This document shows, one piece after another, positions 26,783 through 42,392 of a stretch of 64,000 bases of DNA; positions within the stretch are counted from its first letter, which is position 1, and each line of letters begins with the position of its first letter. The position numbers were made by a program, and so were the translations under genes. The stretch is from Nocardioides sp. HDW12B (lineage in GTDB: Bacteria; Actinomycetota; Actinomycetes; Propionibacteriales; Nocardioidaceae). The notes beneath the pieces were generated by a model. It was not told where the DNA came from, ran no database searches, and worked only from the letters and a program-made list of their open reading frames with translations. The stretch spans positions 1,736,001 through 1,800,000 of the forward strand of contig NZ_CP049867.1 in NCBI RefSeq assembly GCF_011299595.1. Direction: 5' to 3'.

Positions 26783-26971
26783 GAACGGGGTCCTCTCGTT
26801 GTCTGAGACCGGGGCGAGCGGTGGCTGTCCCGGCGGAGCCGAGCCTACCCACGCCCCCTGTGGGCATGCACACCCCCGCGGGTGCTCGGCCGGCGGCCCC
26901 GGGCGACTACACTCGCACTGCCGGCGGCCTGCGTCGGCATGTCAGCCGCCATCTCGAGGACGCGAGGACAC

Positions 26972-27922
26972 GTGACCGCCGTCGACCCCCAGGTGCGCCT
27001 CTCCCCGAGCGCGGGGGGATCCAGCCCTCTCGGCCGGTTCCGCGACGTCGTGGGCGCCTACGTCGGGCTGACCAAGCCGCGGATCATCGAGCTGCTGCTG
27101 CTGACCACCGTCCCGGTCATGTTCCTGGCCTCGCGCGGCGTGCCCGAGCTCGGCCTCGTGGTGGCCACGGTGGTCGGCGGGACGCTGTCGGCCGGCAGTG
27201 CCAACGCCCTCAACTGCGTCTACGACCGCGACATCGACGAGCGGATGCGCCGTACGCGGCGCCGCGCGCTGCCGCGCCACGCGGTCTCGCCGCGCGCCGC
27301 CCTGGTCTTCGGCCTCGTCCTCGGCGTGGTCTCGACCGTGCTGCTGTGGACGCTGGTCAACCCGCTCTCGGCCCTGCTGTCCCTGGCGGCGAACGTCTTC
27401 TACGTCGTGGGCTACACGATGCTGCTCAAGCGACGCACCAGCCAGAACATCGTGTGGGGCGGCGCCGCCGGGTGCTTCCCGGCCCTCATCGGCTGGACCG
27501 CGGTCACCGGCTCGCTGTCGTGGGTGCCGGTCGTGCTCTTCGCGGTCGTGTTCTTCTGGACGCCGCCGCACTTCTGGGCCCTCGCGCTGCGCTACCGCGA
27601 GGACTACGCCGCGGCCGACGTGCCGATGCTGCCGTCGGTCTCCCCGGCCCCCGTCGTGGGACGCCAGATCGTCGCCTACGCCTGGGTGACGGTCGCGACC
27701 TCGCTGCTGCTGTGGCCGGTCGCCGGGACCTCGTGGTTCTACCCGACGGTCGCCGGGATCCTCGGAGCGGTGTTCATCGTGGAGTCGCACCGGCTCTCGG
27801 CCCGCACCCGCGCCACCGACGACGTCGTCGCCATGCGCCCGATGCGGCTCTTCCACTGGTCGAACATCTACCTGTCGCTGCTGTTCGTGGGCGTCGCCCT
27901 CGAGCCCCTCGTCGCCGGCTGA
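26972..27922 (+). CDS. ctaB: Protoheme IX farnesyltransferase (haem O synthase)
   Basis: CtaB adds a farnesyl group to haem B, making haem O for cytochrome oxidase. The 316-residue membrane protein (about eight helices) belongs to the UbiA family, with the first Asp motif N81-x3-D85-x3-D89 followed by RRTRRRALP and the conserved [13 protein letters not shown] loop. GTG at 26972 was chosen for the GAGG site upstream and family length; an ATG at 26939 is the alternative. A TACACT -10-like box is at 26908-26913. It is divergent from tkt and convergent with ctaA. Confidence 0.95.
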
Positions 27923-27944
27923 CCCCGCTCACTCGGGGGCCGTC

Positions 27945-28212
27945 GGTTTCCCACGGTATGCAGCCGAACATGCACTCCCCACGGCGTCCGGAGCACGGGG
28001 AGCGCCAGTTTTCCATGGGGAGTCGGCCGAGCGCCTGACCCACGACCTCCGGACGTACGACGTACGCGCGTCGGCGGGGCACTGGGTCCTGCGAGCCGTC
28101 GCTCGTCGCCGGTCGACGGGATGGCGGCGGAGTTCTTCCCACGGCAACCCGGCACTCCCCACGGTGCGGACGCCGTGGGGAGTGCCAGTTCGCCTGCATA
28201 CCGTGGGAAACC
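27945..28212. repeat. 268-bp palindromic intergenic element (MITE- or REPIN-like)
   Basis: This fills the gap between the convergent ctaB and ctaA. The first 19 bases (27945-27963) are an exact reverse complement of the last 19 (28194-28212). The arms continue to about 78 bp each (27945-28022 and 28135-28212) with roughly 83% identity by hand count, including a second exact 19-bp block that contains CACTCCCCACGGCGTCCG. Each arm folds on itself too: in the right arm GGCACTCCCCACGG and CCGTGGGGAGTGCC form a perfect 14-bp stem. The ~112-bp core shows no gene. I see no clear target-site duplication. It may be a non-autonomous mobile element that now acts as a terminator. Confidence 0.85.
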
Positions 28213-28232
28213 AGCACCCCACCCGGCCGAGG

Positions 28233-29201
28233 TCAGAGCGGGCTGGGGGCGGCGGAGCGGGAGGGGACGGTCCGGTCCCGGGCGGCCAGGAGCAGCCACG
28301 TCATGGCGGCGGCGAAGAGCGCGGCGCCGAGCAGGTGGATCGCGACGAGGACGACCGGCAGGTCGGTGAAGTACTGCACGAACCCGACGGTGCCCTGCGC
28401 GAGCACCACCACGAGCAGGATCCGCGCAGCGCGCACGACCTCGAGGGTGCGGTCCAGGCTGCGCACGGCGACCACCACGGCCACGAGCAGCCCGAGCAGC
28501 AGGAAGACCGCGTCGGTGTGCAGCTGGCTCACCGACCGCGGGTCGAGCCCGTTGCGCGGGGCGTCGGCGTCCCCGGCGTGGGGGCCGCTGCCGGTCACGA
28601 CCGTGCCGAGGTAGAGCACGGCCCAGCCGACGACGAACACGGCGACGGACAGGCGCTCGACGACCGTCCCGACCGTGGGCGCGACCACGGCATCGGCGGC
28701 CACGAGCGGCTCGGCCCGGTCGGCGGGCGAGCCGACCACCACCGAGCGCACCAGCAGCACGGCCACGCAGATCATCACCATCGACACGACCAGGTGCATC
28801 GACACGGTCCACGGGTTGAGGCCGGTCAGCACCGTGACCCCGCCCAGGGCGGCCTGCGCGGGCACGCCGACGGCCAGCACGACCGCCGGCAGCCGCAGGT
28901 CGCGGCGGCTCGAGCGCCACACCGCAACGAGGGTCGCGATCGCGACCGCCGCGATGAGGAAGGTGACCATCCGGTTGCCGAACTCGATCGCGGTGTGGAT
29001 CGTCATCGCGCCGTGCGGCCGGAACGACTCCTCGGTGCAGCGCGGCCACGTCGGGCAGCCCAGCCCGGAGCCGGTCAGGCGCACCACGCCACCGGTCACC
29101 ACGATCGCGATGTTGACCACCAGCGAGGCGACCGCCGCACGCCGCAGCCACGCGGGCGACGTACGCCGGGGCGGGGCGTCGAGGGCGCGGGGCGGGCTCA
29201 C
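28233..29201 (-). CDS. ctaA: Haem A synthase CtaA
   Basis: CtaA oxidises haem O to haem A for the cytochrome aa3 oxidase. The 322-residue membrane protein has about eight helices and the conserved haem-ligand histidines in IHTAIEFGNRM, SMHLVVSMV, SQLHTDAVF and AIHLLGAAL, plus the Cys pair in GSGLGCPTWPRC. GTG at 29201 lies 2 nt after the stop of the ABC permease, so translation is coupled. An upstream GTG in the permease frame was rejected because it would overlap that gene. Confidence 0.95.
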   Translation of the reverse strand: MSPPRALDAPPRRTSPAWLRRAAVASLVVNIAIVVTGGVVRLTGSGLGCPTWPRCTEESFRPHGAMTIHTAIEFGNRMVTFLIAAVAIATLVAVWRSSRRDLRLPAVVLAVGVPAQAALGGVTVLTGLNPWTVSMHLVVSMVMICVAVLLVRSVVVGSPADRAEPLVAADAVVAPTVGTVVERLSVAVFVVGWAVLYLGTVVTGSGPHAGDADAPRNGLDPRSVSQLHTDAVFLLLGLLVAVVVAVRSLDRTLEVVRAARILLVVVLAQGTVGFVQYFTDLPVVLVAIHLLGAALFAAAMTWLLLAARDRTVPSRSAAPSPL

Positions 29202-29203
29202 GT

Positions 29204-29979
29204 CTACTCCCACCGGAAGGTCCTCGCCGTCAGCGCCGTCGCGACGACCGCCCACACGAGCAGCACGAGCGACTGGTCGAGCGGGAACGTGCCGGCCACG
29301 AGGCTCTCGCGCATCCCGCTGCCGAGCGCGCCGGAGGGCAGGTAGGCCAGCACCTCGCCGAACCCGCCGTACGTCGACAGCGGCAGGACCACGCCACCGC
29401 CGGCCGCCAGCAGGATGTAGACGAGGTTGGCCGCCGCCAGCGTGGCCTCGGCCCGCAGCGAGCCGGCGATCAGCAGCCCGAGCGAGGCGAACGCGGCCGT
29501 TCCGAGGGCGACCATGACGAGCAGACCGGCCAGCGCCCGCAGTGTCGTCGCGGGCTCCCAGCCGAGCCCGAAGGCGACGGCGGAGAGCACCAGGACCTGC
29601 ACCGCCTCGACGAGCAGCAGGGCCAGCACCTTGCCGAGCAGCAGGCCGTGCCGCGGCAGGGGCGAGGCGCCGAGCCGCTTGAGGACGCCGTAGCGGCGCT
29701 CGAAGCCAGTGGCGATCGCCAGCGAGGTGAAGGCGGTCGACATGATCGCCAGCGCGAGCACGCCGGGCGTCAGGTCGTCGATGGCGGTGGACGACAGGGA
29801 CAGGTCGAGCTGGCGCGCGGCCAGCACGCCGCCGGTGAGGACCAGCACCGGGATCACCAGCGCCAGCAGCAGCTGCTCGCCGTTGCGCAGCAGCAGCACG
29901 GTCTCCATGCGGGCCTGGGCGACGACCTGGCGCGCCAGGGGCGCCGAGCCGGGTCGCGGGGCGAAGGTGCCGGTCGCGC

Positions 29980-42254: not shown

Positions 42255-42369
42255 CGCAGGCGAGCGGCGTACGAGCGGGGTCGGGAGCAGACCGGCAGCC
42301 GGGCCCGCGGGCATCCGACCGTGGAATAAGGACGCCTCGCGCGGGTTGTAACCGTTGTCACCCGTCCAT

Positions 42370-42392
42370 AACCCCGCGTTACATGCGGGGTT
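42370..42392. terminator. Hairpin between ABC-F and ABC exporter genes
   Basis: AACCCCGC (42370-42377) and GCGGGGTT (42385-42392) form a perfect 8-bp stem with a 7-nt loop, about 115 nt after the ABC-F stop. The rest of this ~190-bp gap shows only AT-richer sequence (around 42345-42370) that may hold the promoter of the following gene. Confidence 0.55.

Follow-up and report, generated by a model that had tools for sequence, protein, structure and literature searches.

The 268-bp element at positions 27945-28212 of the window, by which we mean the whole 64,000-nucleotide stretch of DNA analyzed here, raises the question of what a long nested palindrome is doing between two convergent genes, and whether it stands alone. 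The analysis confirmed the architecture described in the first-pass annotation (a nested palindrome with exact 19-bp ends, ~78-bp arms of ~83% identity, and a core of ~112 bp). The element consists of two palindromic units of ~78 bp that face outward around a ~112-bp core; its arms (27945-28022 and 28135-28212, 78 nt each) are 83% complementary and lie 112 nt apart, and its termini are exact 19-nt inverted repeats (GGTTTCCCACGGTATGCAG / CTGCATACCGTGGGAAACC). The stop codons bear out its position between convergent ctaB and ctaA, the ctaB-like stop (27920-27922) falling 22 bp before the element and the ctaA-like stop (28233-28235) 20 bp beyond it. The annotation had also given each arm a hairpin of its own; one was indeed found in the right arm (28143-28164 / 28173-28194), but each arm is better read as a single asymmetric unit made of an outer end, an inner hairpin, and then an extra inner site, CCRTGGGGAG. 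The component parts are collected in Table 1, where the terminal extensions correspond to outward columns 1-4, conserved across 41 ends.

Table 1. Features of the palindromic element and its immediate surroundings (window coordinates).
Feature	Position	Strand	Remark
ctaB-like gene (protoheme IX farnesyltransferase)	26882..27922	+	convergent; named from the first-pass annotation and the translation
Left terminal extension	27941..27944	.	weakly conserved (consensus TGYC), just outside the outer end
Left type-B palindromic unit	27945..28023	+	~25 genome loci carry the same unit
Left unit, outer end	27945-27963
Left unit, inner hairpin	27972-27984 / 27994-28005
Left unit, extra inner site	28013-28023		CCATGGGGAGT
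Core between units	28024..28134	.	encodes nothing convincing; not similar to the nuclease gene
Inner-flank motif, example	28053-28066		GTACGNCG; type-B inner flank
Right type-B palindromic unit	28135..28212	-	inverted
Right unit, extra inner site	28136-28144		TTCCCACGG
Right unit, inner hairpin	28151-28164 / 28173-28186
Right unit, outer end	28194-28212
Right terminal extension	28213..28216	.	AGCA (consensus RGCA), weakly conserved, outside the outer end
ctaA-like gene	28233..29255	-	convergent; named from the first-pass annotation and the translation

The fold of the element is exceptionally stable on both strands (z of -10.4 and -11.2 against dinucleotide shuffles, with 0 of 200 shuffles as stable), and a structured RNA had been among the readings first proposed. 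An Rfam search of the element returned only chance microRNA matches, and every measure of covariation among 15 symmetric copies stayed at shuffle level; an RNA family is therefore unsupported. A resemblance to the half-sites of CIRCE/HrcA (GCACTC..GAGTGC) was considered and set aside, the half-sites here being spaced much further apart than in CIRCE.

A search of the host genome (4,192,138 bp, or 4.19 Mb, in one contig) with one unit of the element matched ~25 other loci, and copies of the same family were present in other genera too, the opposite of the single copy in all relatives that the first-pass annotation had named as counting against a mobile or RNA role. The CACTCCCC motif is likewise repetitive genome-wide, beyond the window locus. 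Units of this family (family 1) are 78-96 bp long, have ends reading TGYCGGTTT, and come in two types: a symmetric type A of ~96 bp, with outer ends GGTTTCCCACGGTATGCAGG on both sides of a central hairpin (GGCACTCCCCAYGG/CCRTGGGGAGTGCC), and a type B, with a single outer end and the type-A hairpin, in which the extra inner site CCRTGGGGAG replaces the second outer end. At 28 of 38 type-B flanks of the host genome, the motif GTACGNCG or its complement lies no more than 80 bp from the inner end, compared with 12% of random windows. The gene-less forms comprise single symmetric units, single asymmetric units, and doublets with a core of ~70-215 bp. Outward-facing type-B pairs occur at 1763973+/1764153- (the window element), 3805126+/3806410- (1.28 kb), and 3009230+/3016749- (7.5 kb); three such neighbor pairs among 11 random positions have a probability of ~0.001. 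As to their distribution, ~13 of 25 family-1 loci are no more than ~0.5 Mb away from the start or end of the contig, which may be the replication origin, and family 2, introduced below, looks more evenly spread.

The 1.28-kb pair connects the palindromes to a protein. The ORFs that it surrounds lie in two frames and represent a single frameshifted gene: the first covers the N-terminal part of the protein and matches Pfam AbiEi_4, and the second covers the C-terminal part and matches an intact homologue from another genus of the same taxonomic family. There, a 1.2-kb pair of palindromes of the same kind surrounds this intact homologue (genome G059). In a first set of 30 loci, long inverted repeats flank the nuclease gene, as we shall call it from its predicted fold, at ~27. 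This linkage was further strengthened in a second set, restricted to loci with enough flank, where 58 of 73 homologues had long inverted, mostly palindromic flanking repeats scoring >40, as opposed to 0 of 133 control windows shifted by 2.6 kb at the same loci (Fisher p ~1e-37); no repeat pair was detectable at the other 15 of the 73. The sequences of these repeats vary widely from locus to locus while the architecture recurs, with an outer hairpin or nested palindrome, an inner hairpin, and an extra inner site. A complete element is ~1.2-1.3 kb long (most loci 1.13-1.36 kb) and holds a single gene of ~940 bp. Of the 80 homologues retained, 78 passed a simple check of reading-frame integrity.

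Relatives of the G059 protein were found in 107 of the 121 Nocardioidaceae genomes searched, and a scan of GTDB contigs with the same protein returned >550, the best 80 of which come from Nocardioides, Marmoricola, Jiangella, Pseudonocardia, Geodermatophilus, Blastococcus, Nakamurella, Rhodococcus, Aeromicrobium, and others. The genes number about 1-6 per genome and are divergent, unlike those of an active insertion sequence and more in the manner of RAYTs; no homologue was present in the plasmids, phages, and viral contigs searched. Of the transposase with matching ends that the first-pass annotation proposed looking for, the gene with matching ends was found, but what it encodes is an AbiEi-like/Vsr-like protein and no known transposase.

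Structure prediction divides this protein of ~313 aa into an N-terminal half resembling AbiEi antitoxins and a C-terminal domain of the Vsr / I-Bth0305I type (AlphaFold mean pLDDT 94.8, pTM 0.89). Residues 201-313 of the model superimpose on the catalytic domain of I-Bth0305I with a Z of 11.9 (rmsd 2.3 over 96 residues) and on Vsr with a Z of 9.8, and residues 1-196 on the AbiEi antitoxin 6y8q with a Z of 8.7 (rmsd 6.1). The predicted Vsr-like fold comes with conserved acidic residues of a putative active site, and E204, D237, E248, D250, and K254 are invariant among 74 homologues. Sequence profiles recognize the N-terminal part only, through Pfam AbiEi_4 (weakly) and the AbiEi models of PADLOC; sequence searches gave no match beyond these models and no convincing relative in the PDB. 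Taken together, the model points to a putative nuclease whose AbiEi-like half, a winged helix, probably reads the dyad sites of the units and whose Vsr-like domain probably cleaves DNA at the outer end or next to it. Matches to DUF559 occur elsewhere in the genome, one of them 3 kb from a family-1 unit, and show a weak, local resemblance to the protein flanked by palindromes.

Two more nuclease genes of the host genome, at 999710 and 3478903, have flanking palindromes of their own, so that each of its three nuclease genes has its own dispersed palindrome family. The family of gene 999710 (family 2; intact nuclease at 999710-1000606) comprises ~28 type-B and 15 type-A dispersed units (about 40), including seven outward type-B pairs of 252-1275 bp, where 0.23 would be expected within 1.3 kb; among these pairs, four of the gene-less ones measure 252-265 bp, comparable to the 268 bp of the window element. 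The third family, that of gene 3478903, has ~35 dispersed units and includes a 224-bp doublet. A relic of this third family lies in the window itself at 42363-42388 (probably 42330-42388), downstream of an ABC-F-like ATPase gene, and matches 25 of 26 bases of the outer end. In genome G157, from another genus, the palindrome of one nuclease has ~20 dispersed copies. Gene-less doublets of the two other host families measure 224-371 bp and are built like the window element, and from their presence in other nuclease-linked families we conclude that the layout seen in the window is a recurrent class and no accident.

No similarity to the nuclease gene was found in the core of the window element, which leaves an origin of the element by internal deletion unsupported. 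This core is weakly similar to that of the family-2 doublet G000:C1:347019-347270 (p ~0.0007 against real genomic segments, one among several comparisons), a resemblance that is suggestive only; three family-2 doublet cores are clearly related to one another. Mean pairwise identity among type-B units is 90.0% in family 2, which has an intact nuclease (27 units), versus 80.2% in the window family, whose nuclease is frameshifted (11 units), and this single comparison of sequences fits a loss of activity in the latter. Since the only nuclease gene with matching ends found in the host genome is frameshifted, the window family is probably no longer spreading. A further family-2 outward type-B pair (L247, G000:C1:736495-737581) surrounds an intact gene with a methyltransferase domain and no nuclease, this gene being either cargo or enclosed by two independent insertions. 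Given this pair and the 7.5-kb family-1 pair, which surrounds ordinary genes, some pairs may be independent insertions.

The first-pass annotation had also proposed looking for empty sites and target-site duplications. The ctaB-ctaA gap is without the element in 4 of 4 congeners, their intergenic DNA being too diverged for an exact junction. Among the six loci taken into the search, clean empty sites were recovered in several species at a locus of G157, where relatives at 81-87% identity have a short stop-to-stop gap in place of the unit; in G164, the orthologous gap carries a palindrome similar to the one belonging to another nuclease family. The convergent stop-to-stop gap followed across genus g7 (L286-L303) is an insertion hot spot: its occupant is a nuclease palindrome in G157 and a different type in G164, the remaining species having other GC-rich repeats or, in several cases, no repeat at all. 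No target-site duplication was detected at the many offsets tried for 15 single units and 3 pairs, the ends of which are uncertain by a few bases. In the host genome, 15 of 26 family-1 units lie in convergent-gene gaps, mostly <50 bp from a stop codon as judged with a crude gene caller, a class that makes up at most 30% of intergenic DNA (p ~0.003 against the most generous background). At three G157 loci (L271, L274, and L283), the outer end starts right at an apparent stop codon (TGA C GGTTC), so that the upstream gene seems either to take its stop from the element end or to finish directly against it.

We consider it likely that the window element is a non-autonomous doublet belonging to a small mobile family with an AbiEi-Vsr nuclease, by which it is, or formerly was, mobilized. 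In complete form, a member of such a family would have two inverted palindromic units with a single gene, coding for a protein of ~313 aa, in between. The AbiEi-like half would recognize the dyad sites of the units, and the cognate nuclease, acting in trans, would cut the DNA with its Vsr-like domain, after which the sequence between or within units, gene-less doublets included, would be copied or pasted to a new site, mostly where convergent genes leave little space between their stop codons. In this scheme we infer DNA binding, cleavage, trans-mobilization, and target choice from the anatomy, dispersal, nuclease linkage, predicted fold, conserved acidic residues, and empty sites described above. 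Against a mobile reading stand the failure to detect target-site duplications, the small number and divergence of the nuclease genes, and their absence from the plasmids, phages, and viral contigs searched, as well as the 15 of 73 homologues with no detectable repeat pair, the dissimilarity of the window core to the nuclease gene, and the pairs that surround other genes. The MITE- or REPIN-like shape recognized in the first-pass annotation accords with what was found, namely a dispersed, multi-copy outward doublet with related gene-bearing elements.

The same observations can be given other readings. The lack of detected target-site duplications, a chromosomal location in few copies per genome, and a nuclease domain closest to the homing endonuclease I-Bth0305I and to Vsr would also suit a homing-like drive, in which the nuclease cuts element-free alleles, recombination copies the element across, and the dispersed units arise on the side through ectopic repair, not through transposition. 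We regard this as unlikely: each family has tens of copies at loci unrelated to one another, which takes more than allele-for-allele homing, and the terminal palindromes are conserved here. To our knowledge, conserved terminal palindromes are no feature of known homing genes. Similarly unlikely is a view of the units as bidirectional terminators or 3'-end stabilizers of convergent genes, maintained by selection, with the similarity of copies explained by constraint and gene conversion. Strong hairpins and the placement of 15 of 26 family-1 units between convergent genes, mostly <50 bp from the stop, speak for such a role, but presence varies among species at the same gene pair, identity of ~80-90% extends over 78-96 bp including the parts outside the stems, each family matches the repeats of one particular nuclease gene, and within-family covariation is absent. 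A terminator function may have been adopted after insertion and is compatible with mobility.

Inverted repeats are bound by AbiEi antitoxins and PADLOC AbiEi models match the N-terminal part of the protein, from which one could picture an AbiEi-nuclease that cleaves foreign DNA and keeps its own expression down by way of operator palindromes on either side, the dispersed palindromes acting as decoys or self-markers. This role in defense or regulation appears very improbable, as the palindromes flank the gene on both sides as near-perfect inverted copies and disperse without it, and the ~1.2-kb element holds a single gene with no AbiEii toxin partner. Hardly credible, lastly, is a classic MITE of a DDE transposase with the nuclease gene as a frequent passenger; terminal inverted repeats and gene-less copies are what it would produce, but the same gene family recurs in these elements across many genera with differing palindromes, no target-site duplication is seen, and the only other short gene-enclosing pair found here holds a methyltransferase and no transposase.

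Returning to a nuclease-linked mobile family, we advance, as a tentative and by no means assured generalization, that a single nuclease of homing-endonuclease fold, without a transposase or recombinase, moves its own gene together with dozens of gene-less palindromes, and that such elements form a distinct class of mobile DNA in Actinomycetes with several families per genome. In the open PMC literature searched, outside which most subscription papers lie, no account of palindromes accompanying AbiEi-Vsr nuclease genes came to light. The protein family is widespread in Actinomycetes, and sequence profiles see in it only an AbiEi-type antitoxin domain. If the proposal is true, it accounts for one class of the palindromes found between genes in high-GC genomes, makes the role of the enzyme directly testable, and may be a source of sequence-specific nucleases, each with a target that its own flanks reveal.

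Several known systems share parts of this organization. Like MITEs, the window element is small, non-coding, intergenic, and multi-copy, with terminal inverted repeats in common with a gene-bearing element; it differs from them in that no target-site duplication was found, its arms are themselves palindromes, and its gene-bearing relative encodes an AbiEi-Vsr-like nuclease and no known transposase. The EDxHD / Vsr-like homing endonucleases (I-Bth0305I) and Vsr have the same predicted C-terminal fold and conserved acidic residues, whereas the AbiEi-like N-terminal half, the palindromes around the gene, and the gene-less copies set the present elements apart, as do the phages searched, which contained no homologue. 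With the AbiEi antitoxins of type IV toxin-antitoxin systems, the protein shares the architecture of residues 1-196, in line with the PADLOC matches and the weak one to Pfam AbiEi_4, but a nuclease domain is fused to it, and between the palindromes of the ~1.2-1.3-kb elements, the only interval covered, there is no gene for an AbiEii nucleotidyltransferase toxin.

The closest parallel is provided by REP/REPIN sequences and their RAYT enzymes (PMC3116915, PMC3733652). Extragenic palindromes are dispersed there as single units or inverted doublets, gene-less doublets included, and every enzyme, encoded by a gene of few copies, has a palindrome family of its own, copies of which flank that gene. 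All of these traits recur here: inverted doublets of a dispersed extragenic palindrome, an enzyme gene flanked by its own palindrome, a separate family for each enzyme, and doublets without the gene. REP units span 20-40 bp, with GTAG (or CGTC) as an unpaired tag on one side (PMC3733652), whereas the units described here are double hairpins of ~78-96 bp rather than single ones, with neither GTAG nor CGTC at the unit boundary. The enzyme is an AbiEi-like/Vsr-like nuclease instead of a Y1 HUH transposase, and AbiEi-Vsr elements are spread over genera of the Actinomycetes. A search for the Y1 HUH tyrosine transposase (RAYT, PF01797), positive in 10 of 14 control genomes, gave no match at E<=10 in the host genome; the window element therefore resembles REP/RAYT without being a member. 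If the linkage to the nuclease reflects mobilization, the arrangement would represent a second, independently built REP/RAYT-like way of life, with a nuclease fold of the repair and homing type replacing the HUH transposase. Overall, the organization resembles that of REP/RAYT, with a different enzyme and different units.
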